From Nitrospirota bacterium (GTDB lineage: Bacteria > Nitrospirota > Thermodesulfovibrionia > Thermodesulfovibrionales > Magnetobacteriaceae): a stretch of 64,000 nt of DNA. The first letter of the stretch is position 1. Every line of letters starts with the position of its first letter. Positions 2,885 through 59,152 of the stretch are shown piece after piece. The DNA lies in NCBI GenBank assembly GCA_015233725.1, contig JADFXD010000007.1, positions 1 to 64,000 on the forward strand, in the 5' to 3' direction. Under the pieces are notes generated by a model. The model was not told the DNA's origin, made no database searches, and saw only the letters and a program-made list of their open reading frames with translations. A program made the position numbers and the translations under genes.

Positions 2885-5335
2885 CTAAGAGCTCTCGTGC
2901 TTATAATCGCACTCCTTGTTAGCGCAAAATAGGCTGACGGTGCCCTCTGTATCGGTCTTTTCAAAGATATATGCGGCATTGCACTGTGGACAGGGCTGCG
3001 GCACAGGCTTGTACGCGGAGGCGAACTTACAGTCTGGATAGTTGCCGCACGAATAAAACATCTTACCCCACTTTGACTTCCTCTTTACCAGGTCGCCGCC
3101 ATCTACGGGGCATTTCAGGCCGGTTGGCATCGGCTTGATGCGCTTGCACTTGGGGTAGTTTGAACATGCCAGGAACTTTCCATACCTGCCGGTTTTTACA
3201 ACCATCGGGGAGGAGCATTTATCGCAGACCTCATCGGTCTTTTCCTCCTCGACGGCGGGCTTGCCATCCCCATTGGGGGAGTCTATTGGTCTGGCATTCT
3301 TACAATCGGGATAACCGGAGCAGGCCAGGAACCTTCCATTTTTGCCCCAACGTATAACCATTGGCTTGCCACACTTGTCACAGTTCAACTCGGTAGGTTT
3401 GTCCTCGGGTTTTATCCTGCCCAGCGTACTTTTGGCGGCATCGAGCTCATTGCGGAAGTTGGGGTAGAAGTCCCCTATCACCTTGGTCCAACCCACTGCG
3501 CCATCCTCGATCCTGTCGAGGTTGTCCTCCATAGTGGCCGTAAACTGTATGTCTATCAACTCGGGGAAACGCTCCACCAGCATGTCGTTGACCACAGCAC
3601 CCAGCTCGGTTGGCTTAAATCGATTCTCCTGTTTCTCGACGTACTTTCTGTCCTCTATGGTGGACATGATGGTGGCATAGGTGCTGGGTCTGCCGATGCC
3701 TTTCTCCTCAAGGGTCTTTACCAGGGAGGCCTCGTTATAACGTGGCGGGGGTTGTGTAAAGTGCTGTTGGGCATCCAGTTGCAGGAGCTTTAGCGATTGA
3801 CCAACCTTTAGGTTGGGTAGTATCTCGTTTTCTTCCTTGTCGTTCTTGTCATTATTTTCTACGGTCTCAGAATAGAGGGCCAGAAATCCATTGAATTTAA
3901 TCACCGTCCCTGTGGTTCTGAACATGGCCTTCTCACTTGAATCAACTATCTCAAAGGTGGTCTGGTCCAGTTGTGCGGCTGCCATCTGGCTGGCCATAAA
4001 GCGCTTCCATATAAGCTCGTACAGGGCGTAGTGGTCATTGTGGAGGTACTTTTTGATCTTCTCTGGGGGATATTCCATGTACGTGGGTCTTATGGCCTCG
4101 TGGGCCTCCTGGGCGTTGGCCTTTACCTTGTACTTATGGGGCTTGTCGGGGAGATAGTCCTTACCGAAGGTCTCAAGTATGTACTGGGCTGCCCAGGCCT
4201 GTGCCTCGGCGGCTATACGTGTGGAGTCGGTACGCATGTAGGTGATAAGACCGACGGAGCCCTTGTCTGCTATCTCTATGCCCTCGTAGAGCTTTTGGGC
4301 AACGCCCATTGTCTTTTTTGCCGGATAGTACAGCTTGCGTGAGGCCTCCTGTTGCAGGGTGCTGGTGATAAAGGGGGGTGAGGGCAGGCGTTTCCTTGCC
4401 TTTTTCTCTATGTTTTTGAGGGTATAGGACTGACCTTCCAGGCTGTCTTTGATCCTGTTGGCGTCCTGTTCAGATGTGATGTAGAACTTACTGCCCTCTG
4501 CCAGTCGCTCTATGATCGTGTTGTTGTCATACTTGAACAGGCGTGAGAGAAAGGTTGGTTTTTTGCTGCCATCAAACAATCCGGTGATGCTCCAGTACTC
4601 CTGTGTTACAAAGGCCTCTATCTCCCGTTCCCTGTCAACGATCAATCGTACTGCTACCGATTGGACACGACCCGCGCTAAGTCCCCGTCTGACCTTCTGC
4701 CACAACAGGGGGCTAAGGCCATAGCCCACCAGCCTGTCCAGTATCCGGCGGGCCTGCTGGGCGTTTACCTTGTTGATGTCAATGACCGTGGGGTTGTCAA
4801 TGGCGTGCCTGACCGCCCGTTCCGTTATTTCGTTAAACGTAACCCTGTATACCTCGGGCATGTGGGTCGTTTTTTTCTCCTGGGAGATAATTTCGGAGAT
4901 ATGCCATGCTATGGCCTCCCCCTCACGGTCCGGATCGGGGGCGAGGTATACGACAGAGGCCCGTTGGGCTGCATGTCTAAGCTCATCCACTACCTTCTCC
5001 TTGCCGGGGATGGTTACGTATTTAGGCGAAAAACCGTTGTCCGTGTCCACTCCCAACTCCTTCTTGGGAAGGTCTATGATGTGCCCCACCGATGCCTTTA
5101 CCGAAAAGCTCTCGCCAAGTATCTTTTTGATCGTGCCGGCCTTAGCCGGAGACTCTACGATAACCAGCTTATCCACCTTAGACAGCCTCTTAGTCTTAGG
5201 CAGCTTATCCGATTCAGACAGCTCCTCTGTCTTAGCCAGCTTCTTTGTCTTAGCCAGCTTCTTCGCCTTAGGCAATTCTTCCAGCTCAGGCGGCAGTTCT
5301 TCCATCGGTTTCTTGCCATTGCCCTTTAGTGCCAT
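2885..5335 (-). CDS. topA: DNA topoisomerase I (type IA)
   Basis: Relaxes negative supercoils by transient cleavage of one DNA strand. Residues 57 onward hold the Toprim domain (KLVIVESPAKAG, acidic residue E61). The active-site tyrosine is in GLITYMRTDSTRIA. Four C-terminal zinc-ribbon-like units with Cys pairs occupy about the last 170 residues. At 816 aa it has the usual length plus an odd N-terminal extension: residues 20-56 are Lys/Leu/Thr-rich, built on a KLxKTK-like hexamer. The start at 5335 overlaps the upstream small gene by 10 bases. An alternative start is M11. Confidence 0.95.
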   Translation of the reverse strand: MALKGNGKKPMEELPPELEELPKAKKLAKTKKLAKTEELSESDKLPKTKRLSKVDKLVIVESPAKAGTIKKILGESFSVKASVGHIIDLPKKELGVDTDNGFSPKYVTIPGKEKVVDELRHAAQRASVVYLAPDPDREGEAIAWHISEIISQEKKTTHMPEVYRVTFNEITERAVRHAIDNPTVIDINKVNAQQARRILDRLVGYGLSPLLWQKVRRGLSAGRVQSVAVRLIVDREREIEAFVTQEYWSITGLFDGSKKPTFLSRLFKYDNNTIIERLAEGSKFYITSEQDANRIKDSLEGQSYTLKNIEKKARKRLPSPPFITSTLQQEASRKLYYPAKKTMGVAQKLYEGIEIADKGSVGLITYMRTDSTRIAAEAQAWAAQYILETFGKDYLPDKPHKYKVKANAQEAHEAIRPTYMEYPPEKIKKYLHNDHYALYELIWKRFMASQMAAAQLDQTTFEIVDSSEKAMFRTTGTVIKFNGFLALYSETVENNDKNDKEENEILPNLKVGQSLKLLQLDAQQHFTQPPPRYNEASLVKTLEEKGIGRPSTYATIMSTIEDRKYVEKQENRFKPTELGAVVNDMLVERFPELIDIQFTATMEDNLDRIEDGAVGWTKVIGDFYPNFRNELDAAKSTLGRIKPEDKPTELNCDKCGKPMVIRWGKNGRFLACSGYPDCKNARPIDSPNGDGKPAVEEEKTDEVCDKCSSPMVVKTGRYGKFLACSNYPKCKRIKPMPTGLKCPVDGGDLVKRKSKWGKMFYSCGNYPDCKFASAYKPVPQPCPQCNAAYIFEKTDTEGTVSLFCANKECDYKHESS

Positions 5336-5673
5336 AGTATACGTTTCCCCTTCCCAAATATTATAGTGTAGATGTCCTCGCTATCCATATAGGTATCCTT
5401 TACGACTACGTAGCTCAGAAATGCCTTCAGGGTGTCAATATCCTCTTCCGAGAGGATATCCAGGCTTTCCAGGTCTCTGAGGTCATCGCCAAGGCAGGCG
5501 AGGTCGTAGTCCCTGATATTCATCTTTATATTAACATCATCGAAATTCAGGTCACTTCCGACAATCTCTTTTGCAATTATCCGCAGGATAGTCATAAACT
5601 TCTTTTGCATCTTAATCCTCCATATTAAAATATCCCAAAGCTCAGGTTGCTCATTTATTGTATCAAAGTTCAT
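5326..5673 (-). CDS. Small acidic protein of unknown function between dprA and topA
   Basis: This 115-aa protein is not recognised. It is soluble and acidic, predicted mostly helical, with a repeated Asp/Glu-rich central region (LGDDLRDLESLDILSEED). Its ATG overlaps the dprA stop as ATGA and its end overlaps the topA start by 10 bases, so it is probably translationally coupled to both. In many proteobacteria the smg gene (DUF494) occupies this place, but I see no clear Smg sequence signature. A function in DNA handling is only an inference from position. Confidence 0.75.
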   Translation of the reverse strand: MNFDTINEQPELWDILIWRIKMQKKFMTILRIIAKEIVGSDLNFDDVNIKMNIRDYDLACLGDDLRDLESLDILSEEDIDTLKAFLSYVVVKDTYMDSEDIYTIIFGKGKRILWH

Positions 5674-6782
5674 CAGGAAATTAGGTGAAATCTTTTTCCT
5701 TCAAGCTGTTTAACCAGGCCTTTGATCTCGAGACCAAGCAGTATTGTCAGGACGCTGTTGGCAGCAATCCCCGCGTTTCTTATAATATCATCTATGTGTG
5801 TAGGTTCGCAAGAGAGGCACTGGCAGAGAGTCTTTTCTTGTTCGTTGAGCTGAATCTCTCTCTTGGCGGATTGCTTGATATACCCCTTTAGGACAGGGGC
5901 CAGTTCGTCGATGATGTCATCGGCGCAGTGCACCAGTTTAGCGCCCTTTTGGATGAGTCTGTGGGTGCCGATTGTAGAGGTGGAAAAGATGTTGCCTGGG
6001 ACGGCAAAGACATCCCTTCCCTGTTCGAGGGCAATGTTGGCCGTAATCAGGGCGCCGCTGGTTTGACCGGCCTCCACGACAAGCACGCCGAGTGACAGGC
6101 CGCTTATCAGGCGATTACGCACAGGGAAGTTCTCCTTATTTGGTTTGGTGCCGGGGATGAACTCCGAAATCACCGCCGCCTTATCGGATATCCTCTGCAT
6201 TATCCATCTGTTCTCCGGTGGATAGACCCTGTCGATGCCACATCCCAGCACGGCGATGGTGCGTCCGTTTGCCCTGAGCGCGGCCTTATGTGCCGCCGTA
6301 TCGATCCCACGTGCCAGTCCGCTAACGATGGTAAACCCCTTTGAGGCAAGCTCCTCCGAAAGCCTCTCTGTGGCGCTGATACCGTAGGGGGTACTCAACC
6401 GGCTGCCCACCACGGCAACCGCGTAACGGTCCTCCGGCAGCAACTGTCCCTTTACGTAGAGGATTATCGGGGCGTCGTAGAGCTCCCTCAGGTGTGTCGG
6501 ATAGTCCTCGTCACCGAGCTTTATGACGGTGGCGCCAGTTTTTGCTATATTGCCGATGATCCGCTCGATATCACCCCAGCGCGAGTCCCTGGATGAAAAG
6601 GCTGCAATGTTTTCAGCCCTGTTCTTCCCAACGCCATCCACCTCCATCAGGGTCTTGACACTTGTCCCAAGCACGGCCTCCGGTGTCCCAAAGCGGGCAA
6701 GCAGATTGCGGGCAACCGTGTTGCCAACATCCGGCACCATCGACAAAGCCAACCAGTATCGTAAATCCGTATCTAATCCCAT
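5673..6782 (-). CDS. dprA: DNA-processing protein DprA (Smf)
   Basis: Binds incoming single-stranded DNA and loads RecA during transformation or related recombination. The order is an N-terminal helix-hairpin-helix region (MEVDGVGKNRAENIA), a Rossmann-like core with GSR, SGLARGIDTAAH and GCGIDRVYPPEN, and a C-terminal winged-helix segment. The 369-aa length is typical. The start is 8 bases from the A-rich (in plus orientation) end of a GC-rich repeat, so its promoter or leader may lie in or beyond that repeat. Confidence 0.95.
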   Translation of the reverse strand: MGLDTDLRYWLALSMVPDVGNTVARNLLARFGTPEAVLGTSVKTLMEVDGVGKNRAENIAAFSSRDSRWGDIERIIGNIAKTGATVIKLGDEDYPTHLRELYDAPIILYVKGQLLPEDRYAVAVVGSRLSTPYGISATERLSEELASKGFTIVSGLARGIDTAAHKAALRANGRTIAVLGCGIDRVYPPENRWIMQRISDKAAVISEFIPGTKPNKENFPVRNRLISGLSLGVLVVEAGQTSGALITANIALEQGRDVFAVPGNIFSTSTIGTHRLIQKGAKLVHCADDIIDELAPVLKGYIKQSAKREIQLNEQEKTLCQCLSCEPTHIDDIIRNAGIAANSVLTILLGLEIKGLVKQLEGKRFHLIS

Positions 6783-6790
6783 CTCATCAA

Positions 6791-6876
6791 GAAAAAGAGA
6801 AAAAAGAAGAAGGGGGGCGGCTCCGCCCCCCCCTCAGACCCCCCCGCAAGGGGACCAGTCCCCTTGACCCCATTAT
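6791..6876 (-). repeat. GC-rich double-hairpin repeat, copy 2
   Basis: It holds GGGGACTGGTCCCC-type and GGGCGGAGCCGCCC-type palindromes and a pyrimidine tail in minus orientation. The tail ends just before the dprA start, so transcripts arriving from argG would read hairpins followed by a U-rich run. Confidence 0.85.
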
Positions 6877-6942
6877 ACCTTGTTCACGGTACATGCTTAT
6901 ACACAATATCTCAATATTATATCCTGAACTATTTCATCACGT

Positions 6943-8139
6943 TTACGGCAAAATTCTTATTTTCGCCATTTTTAACCGCAGGGCATTGAGTCTGATAAAT
7001 CCCTCGGCATCTTTTTGGTCGTAGAGGTCTTCTTCTTCGAAGGTGGCGAGTTTAGGGTCATACAGGGACACCGGCGAACTTCGGCCAACCACCAGGCAAT
7101 TGCCTTTGTACAGCTTGAGTCTCACCGTGCCGGAGACGCCCTTTTGGGTCTCGTCGATGAACTTCTGTAGTGCCAGTCTCTCTGGTGAGAAGAAGTACCC
7201 ATAGTATATCATCTGTGCATAGGTCTGGATCAAGGAGTCTCGCAGGTGCATGACCTCCCTGTCCATGGTGATTGACTCGATGGCGCGGTGGGCTATGTGC
7301 ATGACCGTCCCGCCGGGGGTCTCGTAGACCCCTCTGGATTTTATGCCGACGTATCTGTTTTCGACGATGTCCACCCTGCCGATACCGTTTGCGCCAGCTA
7401 TGGCATTTAACGCGTTGAGCAGCTCATAGGGGGACTTGTCCTGGCCGTCGATCTTGACGGGATTTCCGTCCTCGTAGGTGATCTCCGTATAGACTGCCTT
7501 ATCGGGGGCATGTTCGGGGGCCACCATCATTGTGTACATGTCATCGGGTGGTTCCTGGGACGGGTCCTCCAGGATACCGCCCTCGTAGCTGATGTGCAGG
7601 GCGTTGCGGTCTGTGCTGTAGGGTCTTTCCTTTGTCACGGGGATATCTATATTGTTTGCCTGTGCGTACTGGATAAGGGCACTTCTGGACTTAAATGGCC
7701 ACTGACGCCACGGGGCGATCACCTTGATCCTTGGCATCAGGGCAAGGTAGCTCAACTCAAACCTCACCTGATCGTTGCCCTTACCCGTGGCCCCGTGTGC
7801 CACGTACTGGGCGCCTTCCTTGATGGCTATCTCTATCTGTTTCTTGGCTATCAACGGTCTGGCAATCGATGTCCCCAGCAGGTAGGTCTGTTCATATATT
7901 GCCTCTGCCCTAAAGATCGGAAATACATAATCCCGGACAAACTCCTCCCTCAGGTCCTCGATATAGACCCTTGAGGCCCCGGTTTTCAGGGCCTTATCCC
8001 TGACCCCGTCAAGCTCCTGGCCCTGGCCGAGGTCTGCGCAGAAGGCTATCACCTCAGCGTCGTAAGTCTCCTTTAGCCACTTTATAGCCACCGACGTATC
8101 CAAACCGCCGGAGTAGGCTAACACTATCTTCTTTGTCAT
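6943..8139 (-). CDS. argG: Argininosuccinate synthase
   Basis: Joins citrulline and aspartate with ATP to form argininosuccinate in arginine synthesis. The N-terminus has the family ATP-binding motif [15 protein letters not shown], and the central region has [16 protein letters not shown]. The whole 398-aa length is collinear with the family. It begins the minus-strand series that continues to hemA, but 160 bases containing a repeat separate it from dprA, so it may be a separate transcript. Confidence 0.97.
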
Positions 8140-10635: not shown

Positions 10636-11342
10636 CATTGACATTTTTTGTCATACACTTACAAAAGGTGTCATACACATGCGCCCATATTTTTCATCGA
10701 TGCGCCTATTTTGCTTGTCGTTATGGCTGGCACGTTAAATGCCTACAACATGGTGGACTATCATACTGGCCGATTTATGCTACGCTATCTAATGGGCATC
10801 TGTGCTAATTACCAGATTTTGCTGGTATACAGAGCCAATATTAAACGTATGTTTGGAGGAAGAATCATGTCGTTGCGAAGTAACAGTCAAACTAGGATAA
10901 GGTATCTCTACCGTAACAGTGTGTTCAGCGTAAGGGTATTGTTTATGCTGGCGATGTTTATCGCGGTTGGGGCGGTGTTTTTGGGCAGCTTTACACCTGA
11001 TGCCTTTGGGGATGGCAGCGCAGGGAAACCTACCGCGATAGTAATAGTACCCACGCCGACGCCCACCCCGACGCCGACGGTCTTTTTAACTGTTCACACG
11101 AACGGTGGCACAGGCGGTGGGTCAGTGATGAGTTCAGACGCCACTATCGACTGCGGAAGGGTCTGTACGGCCAGCTATACGTTAGGCACAACCGTCATCC
11201 TGACGGCAACGCCAGATTCCACCTCGACCTTTGACAGCTGGAGTAGTGACTGCACAAGGGTAAGCGGGGCGGTTTGCTACGTATCGATGACGGCAGCAAA
11301 AGATGTGACAGCAACGTTTACTTCAAACGCAAGGCCGACACC
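10636..11342 (+). repeat. 707-bp direct repeat, copy A (leader plus 5' end of gene)
   Basis: By eye it is identical to 14328-15034. It covers 231 bases of leader and the first 159 codons of the NHL/VCBS gene, ending where the Pro-Thr linker begins to differ. The leader holds two GTGTCATACAC-like direct repeats at 10649-10680 and a short hairpin, TACCAG/CTGGTA, near 10809-10826. Confidence 0.9.
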
Positions 11343-14214
11343 AACGCCTACACCGACACCAACACCGTCGTCAAGGCCAACACCGACGCCAACACCGACG
11401 CCAAGGCCAACGTCAACACCGGCGCCAACACCGTCGTCAACACCAACGCCGACCGTGACGCCAACACCATCGTCAACCCCTACACCAACGTCAACACCGG
11501 CGCCGACACCAGTAGCTTATAACGTTGTAGCCACATGGGGAAGCCTTGGAACAGCAAATATGCAGTTTAATAACCCTCAGGGCGTGGCGGTGGACAAAGC
11601 AGGAAACGTATATGTCGCTGATTCTGGCAACAACCGCATCCAGAAGTTTAACGGTAACGGTTTCTTTAAGACCAAGTGGGGAAGCCTTGGAACAGCAGAT
11701 GGCCAGTTTAATCAACCTGAGGGAATAGCTCTGGACAAAACAGGAAACGTATATGTCGCTGATACAATCAACAATCGCATCCAGATATTTGACGGTAACG
11801 GTAATTTCAACCTCAAGTTGGGCGCCTCTGGAATCGGAGATGGCTATTTTAACAAACCCATTGGAATAGCGGTGGATAGCGATGGACGCATCTATGTCGC
11901 TGACGATATGAACTATCGCATCCAGGAGTTTAACCAAGGCACTTATTACTTTATAACCAAGTGGGGTACCCTTGGAACAGGAAATGGCCAGTTTAATCAG
12001 CCTTATGGCGTGGCGGTGGACAGCGCAGACAACATATACGTCTCTGATTCTGCTAATTCCCGCGTTGAGAAATTTGATTATGCCACTAACTTTCTAACCT
12101 CATGGTGGACGGCAGGAAATGGAAATCCCTCATTGGGATACACCACTGGAATAGCGGTGGACAGTGTAGGAAACGTGTATGTCGCTGATTCTTCTCACGC
12201 TTGCATTAACAAGTATGATGCTAACGGCAACTTCATAACCAAGTGGGGAAGCCAGGGTTCAGGAAGTGGTCAGCTTGATCACCCCGCCGGAATAGCGGTG
12301 GACAGCGCAGGAAACGTGTATGTCGCTGATTCTTATAACAATCGCATCCTGAAGTTTGCTCCATCCTCGCCAATACCAACGCCAACCCCAGTATCTTATT
12401 CCTTTTCCGGCAAGTGGGGAAGCCTTGGAGCAGGCAATGGGCAGTTTAATAATCCTTACGGAGTGGCGGTGGATAATACAGGAGACGTATATGTCGCTGA
12501 TTCGGGCAACAGCCGCATCCAGAAGTTTGACACAATCGGTACCTTTAAGACCATGTGGGGAAGCCTTGGGACAGCAAATGGGCTGTTTAATAATCCTGAG
12601 GGAATTGCAGTGGACAAAACAGGAAACGTCTATGTCGCTGATACACTGAACTATCGCATCCAGAAGTTTGACGGTAGCGGTAATTTCACCCTCAAGTTGG
12701 GAAGCGGACCATTAGTTTTAGATGGCTACTTTGACACACCCATTGGAATATCGGTAGATAGCGACGGACGCATATATGTTGCAGATACGAAGAACTATCG
12801 TATCCAGGAGTTTGACTCAAACACTAATTTTATAACCAAGTGGAGTACTACAAACGTAGGATGTGGCCTGTATAGTCCACCTTTTGGAGTGGCGGTGGAC
12901 AGCGTAGACAACATATATGTCTCTGCTACTGGCAGCAGCCCCTGCGTTGAGGAGTATGATTATAACACTAATCTTACAGACTTAGTGTTTATGGGAGGAG
13001 ACGTCTCACTGGGGACCACCACTGGAGTGGCAGTTGACAGCCTGGGAAACATGTATGTTGCTGATATTGATCACGCTTGCATTAACAAGTATGACGCTAA
13101 CGGCAACTTTTTAACCAAGTGGGGAAGCCAGGGAGCAGGAGATGGTCAGTTTAATCATCCCATTGGGGTTGCGGTGGACAGCGTAGGAAACGTGTATGTC
13201 GCTGATTCCTATAACAATCGCATCGAGAAGTTTGCCCCCTCCTCTCCAATACCAACACCGACGCCAACACCAACGCCAGCTCCAAAACCACACGTTAAAG
13301 GTGACTTCGACGGCGATGGCAAGAGCGACATGCTCTGGTATGAAACCACCACAGGGAATGTCTATATCTGGTTTATGAATGGAGCCACGCCAAGTTCCAA
13401 ACAGTTTGTAGCCCAGGGCGTGCCATCAGATTGGACGATTGTAGGTAAGCCCGATCTAAACGGCGATGGCAAGACCGACGTGCTCTGGCAAAACACCATC
13501 TCTGGGGATGTTGTTGACTGGATAATGAATGGAGCCTACGTGACATCAGCTAACTATGTGTATCATGGTCTGCCTCCGGAGTGGCAGATTATCGGAGTGG
13601 GAGACTTTGACGGCGATGGCAAGGACGATTTACTGTTGCGAGACACAACTCATGGGGGGCTTCTTGTTATCTGGTTTATGGACGGATACAAAATAAGTTC
13701 AGCGCAGCTCCTGTCCCAGGTCGCACCGTCAAATTTAGTGCTTAAAGGCATTGCCGATCTAAACGGCGATGGCAAGGCCGATATGGTCTGGCAAGACACC
13801 AGCAATAATAATGTAGCTGGCTGGCTAATGAATGGAGGCATTATAGCATCCAAGGACTGGATTGAACTTGGTTTGCCTCCAGTGTGGCAGATTCTTGGCG
13901 TGGGAGACTTTGACGGCGATGGCAAGGACGACATATTGATATACGCCGCAGGTACTGGAGATTATGCCATCTGGCTTATGAATGGACTCACGATAACTGC
14001 AGGGAATTATGTAGACCTGCACCCTCAGCACATTCCATCAGTTTGGGCATTTAGAGGCATAGCCGATCTAAACGGCGATGGCAAGAGCGATATCCTTTTG
14101 CAAGACACCAACTCCGGTGGTGTTGCTCTCTGGACAATGAATGGATTCATGGCACCATCAAAAGACTATATTGTCACTGCCACTACCATGCCTTCACAGT
14201 TTCAGATCAAATAA
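10867..14214 (+). CDS. Exported NHL-propeller/VCBS repeat protein, paralogue A
   Basis: Large modular protein of 1115 aa. Order: a basic N-terminus and one hydrophobic segment (about residues 24-42), Pro-Thr linker, an InlB-type beta repeat with Cys pairs (about 72-150), a long Pro-Thr linker, two blocks of NHL repeats ([23 protein letters not shown] type) that could each form a propeller, another Pro-Thr linker, and C-terminal VCBS/FG-GAP repeats with Ca-binding DFDGDGKSD motifs. ATG 10867 follows GGAGGA; the frame upstream is leader. Probably secreted or surface-attached; ligand unknown. It is a tandem paralogue of the next gene. Confidence 0.88.
13787..14168 (+). repeat. 382-bp direct repeat, copy A (3' end of gene)
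   Basis: By eye it is identical to 17434-17815, within otherwise diverged VCBS repeats. The offset here (3647) differs from the 5' repeat (3692), showing a net 45-bp length change in between. Confidence 0.88.
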
Positions 14215-14246
14215 ACCCTTAGCAATAAGGTCGAATTGACTTAAGA

Positions 14247-14290
14247 GGGGCTGGCCGCAGAGTTGCTGTGTGCCAGCCCCTTCTTGTTTA
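14247..14290 (+). terminator. Rho-independent terminator of paralogue A
   Basis: A perfect 9-bp stem, GGGGCTGGC/GCCAGCCCC, with a 16-base loop is followed by TTCTTGTTTA, 33 bases after the stop. The rest of 14215-14558 is the duplicated leader of the next gene and a short spacer. Confidence 0.85.
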
Positions 14291-14327
14291 TTTCGTTAGT
14301 TCAATACCTCGCTGCTTTATTCTGGTG

Positions 14328-15034
14328 CATTGACATTTTTTGTCATACACTTACAAAAGGTGTCATACACATGCGCCCATATTTTTCATCGATGCGCCTA
14401 TTTTGCTTGTCGTTATGGCTGGCACGTTAAATGCCTACAACATGGTGGACTATCATACTGGCCGATTTATGCTACGCTATCTAATGGGCATCTGTGCTAA
14501 TTACCAGATTTTGCTGGTATACAGAGCCAATATTAAACGTATGTTTGGAGGAAGAATCATGTCGTTGCGAAGTAACAGTCAAACTAGGATAAGGTATCTC
14601 TACCGTAACAGTGTGTTCAGCGTAAGGGTATTGTTTATGCTGGCGATGTTTATCGCGGTTGGGGCGGTGTTTTTGGGCAGCTTTACACCTGATGCCTTTG
14701 GGGATGGCAGCGCAGGGAAACCTACCGCGATAGTAATAGTACCCACGCCGACGCCCACCCCGACGCCGACGGTCTTTTTAACTGTTCACACGAACGGTGG
14801 CACAGGCGGTGGGTCAGTGATGAGTTCAGACGCCACTATCGACTGCGGAAGGGTCTGTACGGCCAGCTATACGTTAGGCACAACCGTCATCCTGACGGCA
14901 ACGCCAGATTCCACCTCGACCTTTGACAGCTGGAGTAGTGACTGCACAAGGGTAAGCGGGGCGGTTTGCTACGTATCGATGACGGCAGCAAAAGATGTGA
15001 CAGCAACGTTTACTTCAAACGCAAGGCCGACACC
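14328..15034 (+). repeat. 707-bp direct repeat, copy B
   Basis: Second copy of the shared leader and gene start. The sequences 5' of both copies are unrelated, so the duplication boundary is sharp at CATTGACATTTTTTGTCATA. Confidence 0.9.
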
Positions 15035-17855
15035 GACACCGACGCCAACACCGTCGTCAAGGCCAACGCCAACACCGACACCGACGTCAAGACCGACGCC
15101 GACGCCGACACCGTCGTCAACACCGACACCTACGTTGACACCTACACCAACGTCAACACCGACGCCAACACCATCGTCGTCCCCAACACCGTATGTCTTT
15201 ATCAGCAAGTGGGGAAGCAAAGGGGTAGACAATGGGCAGTTTAATGAGCCTCATGGAGTGGCCGTGGACAGCGCAGGAAACGTGTATGTCGCTGATACCA
15301 TGAACAATCGCATCCAGAAGTTTGGTTCAAATGGTAACTTCATAGCCAAGTGGGGAAGCCCTGGCACAGGAAATGGCCAGTTTAATCAGCCTTATGCCGT
15401 GGCAGTGGACAAGGCAGGAAACGTGTATGTTGCTGATACGGTCAACAGTCGCATCCAGGTGTTTGACGGTAACGGTAATTTTCAAACCAGTTTGGGAGCC
15501 TCTGGAATCGGAGATGGCTATTTTAACCAACCAAGAGGATTAACGATAGACAACGACGGACGCATATATGTGGCCGATACGATGAACTATCGCATCCAGG
15601 AGTTTAACCCAGGCACTTATAACTTTATAATCAAGTGGGGTACCCTTGGATCAGGAAATGCCCAGTTTAATCAGCCTTTTGGAGTGGCGGTGGATAGCTC
15701 ACAAAACATATATGTCGCTGATGCTGCTAATAGCCGCATCCAGAAGTTTGATTATACCACTAATTTTATAACCTCGTGGGGACTCTCAGGGGCTAACCCA
15801 TTGAATGGACCCGCTGCCGTGACATTGGACAGCGCAGGAAGTGTGTATGTCTCTGATTCGGGTAACGCTCGCATCCAGAAGTATGACGCTAACGGCAACC
15901 CTATAATCATGTGGGGCAGCCTTGGAACGGGAGATGGGCAGTTTGATCACCCGGCTGGAATTGCGGTGGATAGCGCAGGAAACGTGTATGTCGCTGATTC
16001 TTATAACAATCGCATCGAGAAGTTTTCTTCAACACCGACAACGCCAGTATCTTATTCCTTTGCCGGTAAGTGGGGAAGCCCTGGCACAGGAAATGGGCAG
16101 TTTAATCAGCCTTACGGAGTAACGGTGGACAAGACAGGAAACCTGTATGTCGCTGATACGGGCAACAGCCGCGTCCAGAAGTTTGACACAAGCGGTAACT
16201 TTAAAACCACGTGGGGAAGCCTTGGAACAGCAGATGGGCAGTTTAATCAGCCTGAGGGAATAACGGTGGACAAGGTAGGCAACGTGTATGTCACTGATAC
16301 CATGAACAATCGCATCCAGACATTTGACGGTAACGGTAATTTCAGCCTCAAGTGGGGTGCCTTTGGAATAGGAGATGGCTTGTTTCACTATCCCGTTGGA
16401 ATAGCGGTGGATAGCGACGGACGCATATATGTGGCTGATGAGATGAACTATCGCATCCAGGAGTTTAACCCAAACACGAATTTTATAATCCAGTGGGGTA
16501 CACTTGGATCAAGCAATGGCCAGTTTAATGAGCCTTTTGGAGTGGCGGTGGACAGCGCAGACAACATATATGTCTCCGACCTTGCTAACGCCCGCGTTGA
16601 GAAATTTGCCTATACCACTAATTTTCTAACCTCATGGTGGATGGCAGGAAATGTCTCATTGGGATACACCACTGGAATAGCGCTGGACAGCCTTGGAAAC
16701 GTGTATGTCGCTGATACCTCTCACGCTTGCATTAACAAGTATGACTCTAACGGTAACTTTCTAACCAAGTGGGGAAGCCAGGGGTCAGGAGATGGTCAGT
16801 TCGATCACCCCACAGGAATAGCGGTGGACAGCGTAGGAAACGTGTATGTCGCTGATTCCTATAACAATCGCATAGAGAAGTTTGCCCCCTCCTCGCCAAT
16901 ACCAACACCAACACCGACACCAACGCCAGCTCCAAAACCACACGTTAAAGGTGACTTCGACGGCGATGGCAAGAGCGACATATTTTGGAAAGACACAATT
17001 TTTGGGTTTACTTATATCTGGTTTATGAATGGGAGCACGATAAGTTCCCCTCAATCAGTATTTGGGGGAATATCATTAAATTGGAAGTTTTTAGGTAAGC
17101 CCGATCTAAACGGCGATGGTAAGAGTGACATGCTCTGGCAAAGCAACAGCACAGGGGATGTTGTTGCCTGGATAATGAATGGAGCCACTATAGCATCCGA
17201 ATGCTATGTTAAGTATAATCTGTCTCCAGAGTGGAAGATTATCGGAGTGGGAGACTTTGACGGCGATGGCAAGGACGATATATTGTTGCAAGACCCAACT
17301 TATGGATATGTTGGTATCTGGTTTATGGATGGATGCACAATAACTTCAGCAAGCCTTATACCCCAGCTCCTGCCTGTAAATTGGACACTCAAGGGAGTGG
17401 CCGATCTAAACGGCGATGGCAAGGCCGATATAATCTGGCAAGACACCAGCAATAATAATGTAGCTGGCTGGCTAATGAATGGAGGCATTATAGCATCCAA
17501 GGACTGGATTGAACTTGGTTTGCCTCCAGTGTGGCAGATTCTTGGCGTGGGAGACTTTGACGGCGATGGCAAGGACGACATATTGATATACGCCGCAGGT
17601 ACTGGAGATTATGCCATCTGGCTTATGAATGGACTCACGATAACTGCAGGGAATTATGTAGACCTGCACCCTCAGCACATTCCATCAGTTTGGGCATTTA
17701 GAGGCATAGCCGATCTAAACGGCGATGGCAAGAGCGATATCCTTTTGCAAGACACCAACTCCGGTGGTGTTGCTCTCTGGACAATGAATGGATTCATGGC
17801 ACCATCAAAAGACTACATTATCACTAGCATACCTTCAGCGTATCAGATACAATAA
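14559..17855 (+). CDS. Exported NHL-propeller/VCBS repeat protein, paralogue B
   Basis: Protein of 1098 aa with the same order of modules as its upstream neighbour: N-terminal hydrophobic segment, InlB-type repeat, Pro-Thr linker, two NHL blocks, Pro-Thr linker, VCBS repeats. The first 159 codons and about 127 codons near the end are identical to paralogue A, while the first Pro-Thr linker, the NHL blocks and the first VCBS units differ at many positions. ATG 14559 follows GGAGGA. The NHL face most likely binds a ligand, so the variable middle could change specificity; this is inference. It ends YQIQ where A ends FQIK. Confidence 0.88.
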   Translation: MSLRSNSQTRIRYLYRNSVFSVRVLFMLAMFIAVGAVFLGSFTPDAFGDGSAGKPTAIVIVPTPTPTPTPTVFLTVHTNGGTGGGSVMSSDATIDCGRVCTASYTLGTTVILTATPDSTSTFDSWSSDCTRVSGAVCYVSMTAAKDVTATFTSNARPTPTPTPTPSSRPTPTPTPTSRPTPTPTPSSTPTPTLTPTPTSTPTPTPSSSPTPYVFISKWGSKGVDNGQFNEPHGVAVDSAGNVYVADTMNNRIQKFGSNGNFIAKWGSPGTGNGQFNQPYAVAVDKAGNVYVADTVNSRIQVFDGNGNFQTSLGASGIGDGYFNQPRGLTIDNDGRIYVADTMNYRIQEFNPGTYNFIIKWGTLGSGNAQFNQPFGVAVDSSQNIYVADAANSRIQKFDYTTNFITSWGLSGANPLNGPAAVTLDSAGSVYVSDSGNARIQKYDANGNPIIMWGSLGTGDGQFDHPAGIAVDSAGNVYVADSYNNRIEKFSSTPTTPVSYSFAGKWGSPGTGNGQFNQPYGVTVDKTGNLYVADTGNSRVQKFDTSGNFKTTWGSLGTADGQFNQPEGITVDKVGNVYVTDTMNNRIQTFDGNGNFSLKWGAFGIGDGLFHYPVGIAVDSDGRIYVADEMNYRIQEFNPNTNFIIQWGTLGSSNGQFNEPFGVAVDSADNIYVSDLANARVEKFAYTTNFLTSWWMAGNVSLGYTTGIALDSLGNVYVADTSHACINKYDSNGNFLTKWGSQGSGDGQFDHPTGIAVDSVGNVYVADSYNNRIEKFAPSSPIPTPTPTPTPAPKPHVKGDFDGDGKSDIFWKDTIFGFTYIWFMNGSTISSPQSVFGGISLNWKFLGKPDLNGDGKSDMLWQSNSTGDVVAWIMNGATIASECYVKYNLSPEWKIIGVGDFDGDGKDDILLQDPTYGYVGIWFMDGCTITSASLIPQLLPVNWTLKGVADLNGDGKADIIWQDTSNNNVAGWLMNGGIIASKDWIELGLPPVWQILGVGDFDGDGKDDILIYAAGTGDYAIWLMNGLTITAGNYVDLHPQHIPSVWAFRGIADLNGDGKSDILLQDTNSGGVALWTMNGFMAPSKDYIITSIPSAYQIQ
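17434..17815 (+). repeat. 382-bp direct repeat, copy B
   Basis: Matches 13787-14168 without a visible mismatch; the first difference after it is C at 17816 against T at 14169. Confidence 0.88.
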
Positions 17856-17880
17856 ACCCTTAACGATAAGGTCGAAATAG

Positions 17881-17926
17881 GGGCTGGCCGCAGAGTTGCT
17901 GTGTGCCAGCCCTTTCTTGTTTATTT
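17881..17926 (+). terminator. Rho-independent terminator of paralogue B
   Basis: Stem GGGCTGGC/GCCAGCCC with the same loop as the terminator of paralogue A, followed by TTTCTTGTTTATTT. One outer base pair is lost relative to the first copy. Confidence 0.85.
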
Positions 17927-17990
17927 CCTTAGTTATAGGGATCAATTGGAATATTATTATTGTGTAACGCATACACTGTGAGAAAGGTAT

Positions 17991-18077
17991 AATGGGGTCA
18001 AGGGCACTGGTGCCCTTGCAGGGGGTTCTAAAGGGGGGCGGAGCCGCCCCTTTCTTTCTTTTCTTCTTCTTCTTTTA
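17991..18077 (+). repeat. GC-rich double-hairpin repeat, copy 5
   Basis: It has the AGGGCACTGGTGCCCT variant and an intact GGGGCGGAGCCGCCCC palindrome. The pyrimidine tail ends exactly at the stop codon of the convergent minus-strand gene. Confidence 0.88.
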
Positions 18078-18749
18078 TTATTCGTAGACCTCGTCGTTGT
18101 GTTGTTCTTTTGGGGTGGCGTCGGGTTGACCATCCACTGGCGGCGTGGCGCTGTCAACGTCTGCGCCTAGGATGTCCTGCATACTGCTTACACGCTTGTA
18201 GGTCTTTGGAACCTCAAACATGGACTTGTCAGCGGCGCCAACCTTTATGTCAGTCAGCTCCATCTTGACCGTAGAGGCCTTGCCCTTGCGTTTGGAATCC
18301 GACGACTTTACCTCGTACTTGATTATCAAACCACCGAGGTCATCCGCCTCCCAGATGACGCCATCATACCTTGCCTTTGGCCTATCCTTGAGATAGAATG
18401 TGACATTGTACTTGGTGCAGGGGTGGTCATTTACGGTCTCGTTGCCGGTCTTTTCCTTGTCTACCCTGGCGTTTTTATCGCCGGGGGAAGGTACATCCTG
18501 TCTTAAGGGCTGCTCCATGTAGGACTTTGCATCGTTAGAGACCGTTATGGATTTTTTGGCATCAGGCAGATTGATAAAGACAATACCATTAATTGACGGG
18601 TTTTCAATCCTCATCTTATTGTCCATATAAGCCACGGTCACAGACATCCCGCTCAGTGTCATCTTCGCCGTGTAGTTGTCCGGTGCGGCGGCATCAACAA
18701 CGCCCGCCACTATCAACAGCAAGCACAGGGCTAACAGATACTTATACAC
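18078..18749 (-). CDS. Exported DUF4412-like protein
   Basis: This 223-aa protein has a clear signal peptide (MYKYLLALCLLLIVAGVVDA). The mature part carries the pattern of DUF4412/LolA-like beta proteins: YTAKMTLSGMSVTVAYMDNKMRIE, later YMEQPL, and a closing DKSMFEVPKTYKRV. Such proteins are periplasmic or outer-membrane associated, with unknown ligands. A low-complexity acidic tail follows residue 200. It stands alone upstream of a GC-rich repeat. Confidence 0.7.
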   Translation of the reverse strand: MYKYLLALCLLLIVAGVVDAAAPDNYTAKMTLSGMSVTVAYMDNKMRIENPSINGIVFINLPDAKKSITVSNDAKSYMEQPLRQDVPSPGDKNARVDKEKTGNETVNDHPCTKYNVTFYLKDRPKARYDGVIWEADDLGGLIIKYEVKSSDSKRKGKASTVKMELTDIKVGAADKSMFEVPKTYKRVSSMQDILGADVDSATPPVDGQPDATPKEQHNDEVYE

Positions 18750-40089: not shown

Positions 40090-40249
40090 ATATTTCTGTG
40101 ATAAGTACCTGCCCTACCAGAAGAGAAGAAAGAAAGGGGCGGCTCCGCCCCCCTTTAGAACCCCCTGCAAGGGCACCAGTGCCCTTGACCCCATAATTCT
40201 TAATCCTGATGTCTCATTCTTAATCATATCATCACAGGATTTTTGACAG
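40084..40249 (+). mobile_element. MITE-like element, CTGTAAA family, copy 1
   Basis: A 166-bp element with imperfect inverted ends: CTGTAAATATTTCTGTGAT on the left, ATCACAGGATTTTTGACAG on the right. Its core (40120-40195) is a GC-rich double-hairpin repeat in minus orientation. Its right 60 bases are identical to those of the copy at 44098-44275. No clear target duplication. Confidence 0.75.
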
Positions 40250-40294
40250 CAAGTGACTTTTTGATGCCCCCTCCTTCTTTCCCTTTTCTTGTAG

Positions 40295-44097: not shown

Positions 44098-44275
44098 ATA
44101 AGTACCTGCCCATATACAAGTAGAGGGAAAGAAAGGGGCGGCGGAGCTTCTTTACCGCTCCAGGTCGCACCTGGCCCCCTTTAGAACCCCCTGCAAGGGG
44201 ACCAGTCCCCTTGACCCCATAATTCTTAATCCTGATGTCTCATTCTTAATCATATCATCACAGGATTTTTGACAG
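44098..44275 (+). mobile_element. MITE-like element, CTGTAAA family, copy 2 (left end eroded)
   Basis: The left side starts at ATAAGTACCTGCC, lacking the outer CTGTAAA; the right end ATCACAGGATTTTTGACAG is intact. The core is a GC-rich repeat in minus orientation that contains the accessory TTTACCGCTCCAGG segment. It begins ten bases after the gspL stop. Confidence 0.7.
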
Positions 44276-44338
44276 CAAGGCATATTTTGTATTTAATCCA
44301 ATTGAAATCTGCTATACACTATCTAATAACATTATATT

Positions 44339-50910: not shown

Positions 50911-52131
50911 ATGTATATGCGAAAGGTTAGAGTTTTATGTTTGTTGTTTAGTTTTATCTTCACGGCAGGCTTTTTGTTGGTACCAAGGGGAGTTACTGCT
51001 AACCCATTAACAGCGGCAGCTATTATCACCGCAGCTCGGAATCTCGTACAGGCACTTAACAATATAGGGCCAAGCCTGGGTACTAATGGACAGGTGGTCG
51101 TTAATGACGCAGTGCAACAACTTAACACATTAGCAAACAAGCTTGAGAAAATTGCGGGCAAAAACATCAAAGACCCATTAGAAAATCTTGGATTGGATGC
51201 TCAGAATATTGCAAATACTCTTATGGTGACAACGTCTAGTATAAATAGTATGCTTACAGTGCAGAGAAACTGCCTTGCGAAAGATTCCGGGATTTTTCTC
51301 GCAGGAGTTCAAACTACAATTGCAAATGCGAAGAAAGGGATACCGTTTGTAAAGTCCGGCACTCCGTTTGTGTCTATTTTCAGTTTTGCAGGTAACCCAC
51401 CCCATACACCTTTCATTATCCCACCTGATGGTGGCACTATGACAATATCGGGGTATGCCTTACGGGAGAAGCTCCCCACCCAAGTAAGCATTGTAGACTC
51501 TGAGTCAAAAAAGACGGTATTTACTCCAATACGTGGCAGCAGCAATGACGAGGTTTCTTTAAGTGTGTCTAAGAAATTCATCCAGGAAAACACCGGTAAA
51601 TGCCTAACATTGGGAGTAGAACCAATGGAGAAACAAGGCTTTCTATTTTCTCATGGTAAAACTACGATAACTCAGTTGAATATCCCATTTTGTGTGCCTC
51701 AGGATTTCGCTGTTCAGCTTCGACTGACCGGCACCATAGCATTTTCATGTACAAATGTAACGACATCTCCTGTGCCAGTAACTGGATATGTAACTCAAAT
51801 AAATGACGATTGTGACCACACCACCACTGTTGGTTACACGTTTGCAATGTCTGTACCACAAGGATGTAGAATAATTGAAGCAACGGCTATGAGAGGAAAC
51901 AATACCCGTAACGAAATTGGCGCAACACACGCTTCTTTTACTGATTCAAACGTTACATTAACCGGACAGATTGGCGCTGCTAATTGTGCAGGTATACCAT
52001 TCACTGGTATAAAGAAAGAAAATAATCATGCTGTTTGGCAGTATGCAGCGAGTGCAATCAAACAGTGCTCGGAGCAAATTATTCTTACTGTAAAAAATCC
52101 TGTGATGATATGCTTAAGAATAAGACATTAG
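50911..52131 (+). pseudogene. Secreted protein gene of unknown family, 5' part, interrupted by a mobile element
   Basis: Signal peptide (VRVLCLLFSFIFTAGFLLVPRGVTA) then a helical region (LVQALNNIGPSLGTNGQVVVNDAVQQL) and beta-rich sequence with several Cys. Codons up to 52083 (391) are native; the last 15 residues (from LTVKNP) are read from an inserted element. Removing 52085-52253 plus one copy of AAATTATTC joins this part in frame to 52262-52561 for a 490-codon product. The family is not recognised. It may still be secreted as a shortened protein. Confidence 0.85.
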
Positions 52132-52253
52132 GATTAAAAGTTATGGGGTCAAGGGGACTGGTCCCCTTGCAGGGGGTTCTAAAGGGGGGCGGAGCCGCCC
52201 CTTTTTTCTCTTTTGGTGTGGCAGGTACTTATCACAGAAATATTTACAGGAGG
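52085..52253 (-). mobile_element. MITE-like element, CTGTAAA family, copy 3, inserted in a gene
   Basis: About 169 bp. Ends CTGTAAAAAATCCTGTGAT (from 52088) and ATCACAGAAATATTTACAG (to 52249) are imperfect inverted repeats. AAATTATTC flanks it on both sides (52076-52084 and 52254-52262); the similarity extends to 14 bases with one mismatch (GGAGC/GGAGG). A GC-rich repeat forms the core. Orientation is opposite to the copy at 40084. Confidence 0.9.
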
Positions 52254-52592: not shown

Positions 52593-53453
52593 TCATTTAG
52601 CCTTCCAATCTGAAGACATACCGTTTATCACATACCCTTTATCGGCTATATTCAACCCATCCATAAACCAGGTATAGACGCCTCCAGTGTTTGTATCTTG
52701 CCACATGATATCAGCTTTAGCATCACCATTGTAGTCCGCCACTGACAATATTTGCCAGTTTTTGGGTATCCCACTGGCTATATATCCACCACCGATTATA
52801 TTAAATCCGTCCATTAACCATACATAAACATCGCCTGAATTACTGTCTTGCCAAAGCATATCGGCATTGCCATCGCCGTCAAAGTCTCCAACTGCCTTTA
52901 ACTGCCAGTTGCCAGGAACATCCTTATAGGCATAATCCCCCATTGAAATGCTTACCCCATCCATTAACCAAACATAGATGCTACCGCTACTGGTATTTTG
53001 CCAGACTATATCGCTTTTAGTGTCTCCATTCAAATCTGCTACGCTATTAATGACCCAACCTGACGGTATCCCTTTAGCGACAAAGGCACCTTTCTTTATG
53101 TTCTTACCGTCCATTAACCATACAACCACATCGCCTGTATTGCTATTTTGCCATAGAATATCGCTCTTACCGTCACCATCGAAGTCACCAATGGCCTTAA
53201 ACACCCAATCTTTTGATAATCCCCTCAAGGCAAAATCGTGAGTGGATATCTTAGTCCCGTCCATTAAATAAACATAGACATCCCCATTGCCCTTGTGTCG
53301 CCATAACATGTCGGCTTTGCCGTCACCATCGAAATCTCCAACTCCTTTGATTTCCCATTCAGGTGGAACACCTTTTGTGACGTAATCGCCTACGTTTATA
53401 TTGGTCTTGCTCATAAGCCAGATAACACATCTCCTGTTGCGGCATTGTACCAC
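52593..53453 (-). pseudogene. VCBS/FG-GAP C-terminal part of a frameshifted secreted protein
   Basis: Contains about eight half-units of the VCBS repeat ([40 protein letters not shown]), ending ADKGYVINGMSSDWKAK. Its frame meets the upstream frame at about 53423: the sequence reads GATGTGTTATC where repeats elsewhere have GATGTGGTT, so one G appears missing. With that base restored the junction reads GDVVIWLMS. Confidence 0.85.
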
Positions 53454-54502
53454 AGGGCATCGCTATTACCATCGCCATCAAAGTCGTATGGATGTTCCTG
53501 TTCCTTGTTAGACGCAAACTCAACGGTAACGCTCTTATTGGTGTTCATCTTAACCTGGCATTGGATGTTACCTATATTGTCATCACAACCCATCCATATT
53601 GCCTTGAATCCCAACCCTGGTGTGGTTGTTATAGTAACGTCCGTACCGATTTTGTAAGAGGCCGCGCCAATTTTGCTACTTGTATCCCATTTGAGGGTTC
53701 CAGGTGCCGCTGTGACCGTGCCACTGCCAGCGCCCTTTATTGTAATAGTTAGTATTACTGTCGGGGTTGGAGTAGGTGTTGCTGAGGGACTTGGTTTAGC
53801 CGTAGGAGAAGGAGTTGGCGTAGGGGTAGATGAGGGTGTCGGTGATGGCGTAGGAGTTGAGGTTGGAGTAGGCGTTTGAAAGGCCGCTGTTATTTGTTTA
53901 TCCATGCTCATTGTTACGGTGCATTTATTATCGCTGGAGGTTGTATCACAGCCAGACCAGTCCCCAAAGGTAGAGTTACTATCTGGTGTTTCATTGAGGA
54001 TAACTAATGTACCGCCGGCATAAATAGAGGTTCCGGTGCTTCCACTCCAATTAATCGTGCCAGTGGAGACTGTCACAGAACCCATACCGGTACCGGTCTT
54101 TGTTATTGTCAGTGTGAAGACTGCTGTAAAACTAACCGATACATTCCTGTTTGCTGACATTGTAATAATACATTGATTACCGCTTGTGGAATCGCATCCT
54201 GTCCAGGCTCCAAACACTGCGTCATAACCTGCCGTTGCGGTGAGGGTCACGGCTGCCCCACTGGCATATACAACTGTGCCGGTGTTACCACTCCAGCTTA
54301 TTGTACCCGTGGAGGCTTTTACTGCATTCGTACCGGAACCGGTCATTGTGATTGTCAGGGTGGATGCAGGATTAAAACTAACCGATATGTTCTTGTTTGA
54401 CGACATTATGACTGTACATTGGTTGTCATTTGTGGAGTCACACCCTGTCCAGGCTCCAAAGATTGAACCACTGGCTGCTGTTGCGGTAAGGGTAACAGAC
54501 AT
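53411..54502 (-). pseudogene. InlB-repeat and Pro-Thr linker part of the same frameshifted gene
   Basis: Several InlB-type beta repeats (SVTLTATAASGSIFGAWTGCDS, TGTINWSGSTGTSIYAGG), a Pro-Thr/Ser linker, one more beta repeat with Cys pair, and the first VCBS motif (DFDGDGNSDALWYN). It joins the upstream part by a frame change around 54540-54556: the last repeat of that part reads VTPDNLEWQHRQH-stop, while the other frame continues ITWSGNTGSTKYGG. Confidence 0.83.
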
Positions 54503-54515
54503 CCCACCACCGTAT

Positions 54516-56012
54516 TTAGTGCTGCCGGTGTTGCCACTCCAGGTTATCAGGCGTCACTGAACCAGACCCTGTACCGGTCTTTGTAATGGTCAGTGTAGAC
54601 GGATACGCTATAGCCTCAAAGAGCACCGACACACTCTTGGCCGCCAACATCGTAACTGTACATCGATTCTCATGAACAAAATCACACCCTTGCCATACCT
54701 GATATTGTGAACCAGAATATGCAATGGCAGTGAGGACAATAGACGTTCCGCTGATATATGAAGCGGTACCGGTGTTTCCATTCCAGTCGATAGACCCCAT
54801 TGACGCGGTAACTGTACCTGAACCGGTACCGGTTTTTGTGACGGATAGGTTAAAGAGAGTTGGTTTTGGGATGGCAACCTTCCCGATCTTGTTACCTACG
54901 TTTTCAGCGAACCATATATTACCGTCTACACCGGAGGTTATACAAGAAGGCCAACTATTGGGTGTGGGTAGAGAATACTCGGTGATAACGCCTGCTGTGG
55001 TAATCTTCCCTATGTGGTTAGCGCTGGCCTCAGTAAACCATAAGTTACCGTCTGAACCGGAGGTTATACCCAACGGAGCGCTACCTACTGTGGGTATGGT
55101 GTACTCAGTGATAGTACCTGATGTGGTGATCTTACCTATCTTGTTACCACCCTGTTCAGTAAACCATAGGTTACCGTCTGGGCCGGAGGTTATACCCCAC
55201 GGAGTGCTACCTGCTGTGGGTATGATATACTCAGTAATAACACCTGCTGTAGTAATCTTCCCTATGTGGTTAGCGCCGGCCTCAGTAAACCATATGTTAC
55301 CATCTGAACCGGAGGTTATACCCAACGGAGCGCTACCTGCTGTGGGTATGGTGTACTCGGTGATAGTCCCTGATGGTGTGATCCTCCCTATCTTGTTACC
55401 TGATCCTTCAGTAAACCATAGATTACCGTCTGGGCCGGAGGTTATACCCCACGGAGAGCTACCCGCTGTGGGTATGATATACTCGGTGATAGTCCCTGAT
55501 GTTGTGATCTTCCCTATCCTGTTAGCGCCTTGTTCGGTAAACCATAGATTGCCGTCTGGGCCGGAGGTTATATCTGCCGGTTTACTGTCCTTTGTAGGTA
55601 TGATATACTCAGTGATAGCCCCTGCTGTGGTAATTTTCGCTATCTTGTTGGCATTAAACTCGGTAAACCACAGATTGTCGTCTGGGCCGGAGGTTATACC
55701 CCACGGAGCGCTACCTGCTGTGGGTATGGTGTACTCGGTGGCAGGGATTAGTGGTGGCGGCGATGGAGTGGGCGTTGGTGTAGGGGTTGGCGTTGGAGTA
55801 GGTGTGGAAGATAGATTGAATGTTGCCGTCACGTTTTCAGATTCCGACACCGTTAGCACGCAGGTTGAGGTCTTCCCTGTGCAGGCGCCATTCCAGCCGG
55901 CAAAGGTCGAGTCGGAGTTAGCTGTTGCGGTTAGGGTAACGGACGTTCCTGTAGCATAGGAGGCGGTTCCGATGTTTCCGCTCCATATAATCGTGCCAGT
56001 GGAGGCTGTCAC
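54516..56012 (-). pseudogene. Vgb-like propeller part of the same frameshifted gene
   Basis: InlB-type repeat, Pro-Thr linker, then about eight units of [42 protein letters not shown], a streptogramin-lyase (Vgb)-like seven- or eight-bladed propeller, then two more beta repeats. The catalytic histidines of true Vgb are not evident, so it is probably a binding propeller. The native frame extends upstream of 56012 (AGANLYGITSFNLTITKAGTGSGT) to the frame change at 56081-56085. Confidence 0.85.
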
Positions 56013-59116: not shown

Positions 59117-59152
59117 CCTGAGTATTGAGAGCCATAGATGGCGAGGGATAGA

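Follow-up and report, generated by a model that had tools for sequence, protein, structure and literature searches.

Exact terminal tracts in two tandem NHL-propeller genes of a Nitrospirota genome are best explained by segmental gene conversion

The window analysed here (64,000 nucleotides, the whole stretch of DNA presented above) is contig C35 of genome G000 (3.32 Mb, 168 contigs, 88.6% complete). Two large genes, A and B, lie head to tail on it; these genes and all their parts are on the plus strand. Gene A (10867..14214; sequence, Pfam, start inspection, and structure model) encodes 1115 amino acids from its likely ATG at 10867, which stands behind a GGAGG. Its product carries a hydrophobic, signal-like sequence (recognized by eye) and an InlB-type repeat, then a Pro-Thr linker, 12 NHL blades in two sets of six, and FG-GAP repeats. 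Gene B (14559..17855; 1098 amino acids) has the same architecture by Pfam, with the equivalent start at 14559 assigned through its identity with A. Pfam placed NHL repeats (E values for the pair, 7.6e-93 and 2.1e-103), an InlB-type repeat (Flg_new_2), and FG-GAP repeats on both genes; an earlier first-pass annotation had named NHL, InlB, and VCBS units, of which the first two agree with Pfam and the C-terminal repeats match FG-GAP instead.

In gene A, the remainder of the Pro-Thr linker (11343..11520), where identity with B stops, carries indels and has a dS of ~0.76. Behind it lie propeller 1 (11536..12372) and propeller 2 (12412..13248), each of six NHL blades by Pfam, propeller comparison, and structure model, and then the FG-GAP repeats (13282..14211), the first part of which is diverged from B while most of the rest falls in an identical tract. 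The counterparts in gene B are propeller 1 (15210..16040) and propeller 2 (16068..16898), delimited by Pfam and propeller comparison, and the FG-GAP repeats (16932..17852), delimited by Pfam and alignment. An AlphaFold model of A had 24 strands in one NHL part and 23 in the other, with pLDDT mostly 70 to 90 there (whole-protein mean, 56; pTM, 0.36) and low confidence outside them, FG-GAP repeats included. The NHL parts of A are thus modelled as two six-bladed propellers, with strand counts as expected, and PDB relatives of the NHL parts include Thin, TRIM71, PknD, and designed Pizza proteins. Both proteins are probably secreted.

Gene A is preceded by a gene that we take, from its translation, to be MoaA-like. 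Each of the two genes is followed by the same terminator-like hairpin core of 34 bp (14246..14279 behind A, 17879..17912 behind B; exact match and folding), the surroundings of which are diverged. Terminator-like sites numbered 14 against 6.5 by shuffling, and these two hairpins were judged by folding instead; a promoter scan gave 13 sites where shuffling predicted 10.1, and nothing useful. At the Rfam gathering score, the sole match in the window was a tRNA, with no known RNA in the leader shared by A and B, and a riboswitch or other known RNA there was rejected on that basis. Elsewhere in the window, at 52593-56012 (minus strand) and 59138-60625 (plus strand), further open reading frames carry InlB-type repeats, Pro-Thr linkers, and FG-GAP or Vgb-lyase-like repeats (by eye).

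Two long tracts are identical between the units. The 5' tract is an exact match of 707 bp (10636..11342 in unit A, 14328..15034 in unit B) and consists of ~231 nt of noncoding leader, placed by start-codon inspection, followed by ~476 nt from the start of the coding sequence, which hold the signal sequence, the InlB-type repeat, and the start of the Pro-Thr linker. The 3' tract is an exact match of 382 bp (13787..14168 in unit A, 17434..17815 in unit B) and leaves 46 nt in A and 40 nt in B up to and including the stop codon. The left edge of the 5' tract is abrupt, at 10636 and 14328, and coincides with the outer end of the duplicated unit; its inner side is flanked by divergence, as are both sides of the 3' tract. 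The third-longest exact match between the units is 65 bp. Their alignment has 500 differences in 3606 columns, none of them inside the tracts, and identity outside the tracts is 80.1% over 2517 aligned columns. When the 3606 columns were shuffled 5000 times, no run exceeded 102, so tract lengths of 707 and 382 bp, edged by diverged sequence, are far above chance. (The profile of this pair gives 707/708 for the longer run, the one base being a chance match of the flank.) The first-pass annotation had reported both exact matches, differing middles, and borders of identity at the linker and inside a VCBS unit, and this description was confirmed: the inner boundary at 11342 lies in the Pro-Thr linker of A, and the 3' tract starts at 13787 inside an FG-GAP/VCBS-type unit.

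Over the 746 codons of the middle, dS was 0.40 and dN was 0.20 (dN/dS, 0.50). In 15 windows along it, silent change was homogeneous (P = 0.30) and replacement change was heterogeneous (P = 5e-9). The tracts held no silent change over 116 silent sites (5' coding part) and 83 silent sites (3' tract); at the rate of the middle, the chance of this is 2.5e-19 and 4.9e-14, respectively. Together with the homogeneous silent divergence of the middle, this implies that the ends were made alike recently. Behind the 3' tract, divergence resumes in the final 13 aligned codons (dS, 0.30; dN, 0.27), and in the last 100-column stretch, which includes the 3' flank, 69 of 85 aligned bases are identical.

Purifying selection strong enough to keep just the ends identical, for which nothing speaks beyond the identity itself, would have to preserve silent sites and a noncoding leader as well. 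Related sequences also argue against it: leaders in genome G001 are 71 to 75% identical over 104 to 217 nt, InlB parts on contig C91 of G000 are 76 to 77% identical, and a related 3' part in G001, in a non-syntenic relative, is 67% identical. Divergence of 23 to 33% in the related leaders and ends compared, and the noncoding nature of the leader, mean that constraint cannot explain the identity of the tracts; we rejected it as the cause and regard it as extremely improbable.

Segmental gene conversion, which the first-pass annotation had proposed, emerged as the best-supported mechanism, on the strength of exact tracts, no silent change in them, a diverged tail, and similar tracts elsewhere. 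We consider it likely that A and B go back to an older tandem duplication and that ectopic conversion recently laid two tracts over it. The whole unit of leader, gene, and hairpin would first have been duplicated in tandem in this lineage, both copies would then have diverged along their full length, and homologous recombination would recently have overwritten two distinct stretches of one copy with sequence of the other, the first at the 5' terminus and the second within the FG-GAP region. We infer a RecA-type process, a donor copy, and identity of the tracts in the real genome beyond the assembly. Conversion is favoured over a recent duplication of the whole because the tail behind the 3' tract has diverged again.

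In three of three same-genus genomes (G001, G002, and G003), as seen from the MoaA side only, the MoaA-like gene is followed by genes other than A and B, so that the A/B pair looks lineage specific. Positional orthologues of A or B behind the MoaA-like gene were found in none of the three, and a search with the 5' leader gave no match on the G001 and G002 contigs that carry the other flank. The dS of the MoaA-like neighbour to G001, G003, and G002 was 0.87, 0.85, and 1.25, respectively, with dN/dS of 0.10 to 0.12.

A rival reading is a recent duplication of the whole gene, after which one middle was replaced through recombination by a diverged relative (cassette exchange). Possible donors are many, with at least 134 NHL matches in G000, and the closest pair of propellers is not collinear: A propeller 1 and B propeller 2 are 86.4% identical, compared with 81.3% for A propeller 2 and B propeller 2 and 78.7% for A propeller 1 and B propeller 1. 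The propellers are therefore not clean collinear pairs, which counts against simple conversion too, and a clean phylogeny of them was not obtained (2:2 site patterns, 16/16/6); the non-collinear likeness may reflect exchange between propellers or unequal rates. A replaced middle nevertheless does not account for the diverged tail and 3' flank past the 3' tract, and the homogeneous silent divergence over the middle speaks against it. Within the genome, each middle matches the other copy best (80%, 1961 bits), contig C105 coming next (67%; 214 and 242 bits), and an outside donor of a middle was not found among the candidates scored (40 of 93 and 40 of 99). Such an exchange is accordingly improbable.

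The main rival to conversion is an assembler that homogenized repeats, in which case the true ends would be merely similar, with one consensus written into both copies (or the middles swapped between copies). Near-identical repeats in short-read metagenome assemblies can receive one consensus, and an exact repeat of 707 bp is longer than many short-read inserts. The assembly of G000 resembles those from short-read metagenomes in its 168 contigs and in that the Rfam model found no 16S rRNA gene, and its fragmentation and incompleteness weigh against conversion. The first-pass annotation had thought an artefact less likely because the middles differ throughout; this argument is weak, as differing middles prove two genes and are compatible with consensus ends. 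Other evidence against an artefact comes from this assembly and from others. The window holds no N, a 5' tract in a third near-identical copy was not found in the 88.6% complete assembly, a three-copy locus on contig C37 retains single-base differences next to its shared core, so that variants were kept apart there, and similar tracts occur in two further assemblies, G001 and G006. Moreover, a collapse would be expected to hide only a few percent of difference, and even then the ends would be much more recent than the middle; exact identity may thus mask a few percent, which would alter the age of the event and leave its nature unaltered. Taken together, we hold an artefact to be unlikely.

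Recurrence was assessed by comparing exact matches of at least 60 bp among 15 stretches of G000 and 13 of G001. Apart from A/B, one large case between genes was seen in G000, on contig C37 (L067), where three genes with NHL and peptidase C13-like parts (4129-7371, 11774-15013, and 15047-18325) share their 3' ends: copies 1 and 2 match exactly over 712 bp and all three copies over 598 bp, with a few single-base differences beside the shared core in the third copy. For this trio, dS was 0.72 to 0.92 in the NHL parts, 0.23 to 0.28 in the C13 parts, and 0.01 to 0.04 in the tract with its edges; the dN/dS of 1.10 for the tract shared by copies 1 and 2 was not used, given near-zero change there (dS, 0.011). 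On contig C183 of G006, a genome of the same family, an adjacent NHL pair has tracts of 494 and 236 bp, which are found 5'-terminally and within the gene's first half; its C termini differ. Between contigs C3 (L082; C3c) and C7 (L083) of G001, NHL/FG-GAP paralogues share an exact run of 359 bp; this run sits inside a highly similar stretch with one long internal gap. A 2001-bp match between stretches C3a and C3b of G001 was dropped as an overlap of the two stretches, and all runs of L090 and all but one of L091 were dropped as shifts of a uniform run of ~100 bases, taken as masked N; L091 also has a separate 79-bp repeat.

Ten paralogue pairs were profiled, those outside the window that proved positive having been chosen because exact matches had already been seen in them. 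Runs of 359 to 712 bp, against shuffle maxima of 60 to 87 (1000 shuffles), were found in six: A/B, the three C37 pairs (712, 598, and 598 bp), the adjacent pair of G006, and the cross-contig pair of G001. The remaining four count against the conversion reading. Two had a weak excess, with runs of 74 bp (a tandem pair, cytochrome-like by eye) and 57 bp (a separated NHL pair of G006), and two had none, with runs of 38 bp (another NHL pair of G006) and 20 bp (a tandem pair, porin-like by eye). Likewise, between the adjacent genes on G001 C11 (C11b) and between those on G000 C41, all exact matches fall short of 60 bp. An NHL search of five genomes assembled in 1 to 3 contigs gave no match in three, and the stretches taken from the other two, G029 and G022, showed no long exact repeat between NHL genes.

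The first-pass annotation had gone on to propose that conversion keeps the export and anchoring parts uniform while the propellers diversify, as in antigenic or adhesin variation. This functional reading is not supported. The position of the tracts varies by locus: those of the C37 trio lie solely at the 3' end and those of the G006 pair in the 5' half, so that they reveal no general rule by which export or anchoring parts would be kept uniform; the 3' tract of A and B lies in FG-GAP repeats, and no mark of an anchor was found there. As for diversification, the dN/dS along the alignment, a check that had been suggested with the proposal, exceeded 1 in no 50-codon window (one pair of copies compared), the highest values reached being 0.85 (propellers) and 0.95 (the short final window).

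In the NHL blades, the D at -6, the Y at 0, and the V at +1 were the same in all 12 blades compared, and amino acid changes avoid this core motif and cluster at positions between the conserved ones, probably in loops (by eye). Relaxed constraint and a changing binding face would each be consistent with this pattern. A dedicated antigenic or adhesin variation system, with identical ends serving as recombination arms that shuffle propeller middles, could draw on this placement of changes outside the core motif and on a middle dN/dS of 0.50 that exceeds the 0.10 to 0.12 of the MoaA-like neighbour; ends of 382 to 707 bp are, in addition, ample for homologous recombination. Such a system is nonetheless very improbable: A and B are both full open genes with their own leaders, the search with the 5' part returned no third near-identical copy, and neither the dN/dS windows nor the shifting place of the tracts agrees with it.

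A broader reading, that this lineage (G000 and relatives) holds several tandem arrays of probably secreted propeller proteins in a recombining state, we consider quite unlikely. Were it true, frequent tract conversion between array members and between the propellers of one gene would generate new mosaic propellers on a constant frame, working in the manner of babA/babB but with NHL propellers, and the constant part would be the secretion signal and the C-terminal frame.

Precedents exist for the kind of event favoured here. In Helicobacter pylori, according to a review (PMC3960876), babA/babB and homA/homB have a 3' segment that is homogenized within a strain while other segments diverge, most likely, for babA/babB, by RecA-dependent intragenomic recombination; sabA has its highest identity with the paralogues sabB and hopQ at its 5' and 3' ends, with conversion mainly through intragenomic recombination. 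A and B resemble babA/babB and homA/homB in the segmental homogenization of paralogous genes, which encode outer membrane proteins there, and resemble sabA/sabB/hopQ in that both ends are alike among paralogues. They differ from babA/babB and homA/homB, where many strains were compared and the ligand of BabA is known, in coming from one assembly and encoding NHL-propeller proteins; and they differ from sabA/sabB/hopQ, which are outer membrane adhesins at separate loci with phase variation, in being tandem NHL genes. Concerted evolution in prokaryotes, in which paralogues within one species are more alike than their age predicts, is described in a second source (PMC6053082) as recurrent and long-lasting homogenization in genes of important pathways, unlike the apparently recent homogenization of segments only in A and B.

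Within the library searched, no paper was found that combined gene conversion, NHL, tandem, and propeller; the A/B case is a new instance of an already known kind of event. If the tracts are real, they provide a clear example of concerted evolution acting on segments of large propeller proteins, with more than one locus and more than one genome showing it. Propeller genes of this kind are also spots where assemblies need checking, and conserved ends around a variable middle are by themselves no proof of adaptive diversification.

Other repeats were observed in the same material. Exact direct repeats of 227 to 327 bp lie within contigs of G000 in L031 (C23; 1391-1628 and 2519-2756), L074 (C159; 4535-4761 and 5039-5265), and L068 (C105; 6997-7323 and 8331-8657), the first two inside repeat-protein genes and the third beside one, and they may reflect recombination among repeats. 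A dispersed repeat of ~134 bp, with inverted repeats by eye, occurs in the window at 40120-40260 (minus strand), 44175-44279 (minus strand), 52084-52209 (plus strand), and, directly behind gene B, 17989-18066 (plus strand); its sites had no Rfam match at the gathering score. It has at least 51 matches in G000 and at least 40, 41, and 49 in three same-genus genomes (40 candidates scored per genome), several copies on separate contigs are 99 to 100% identical, and it looks like a REP- or MITE-like family.
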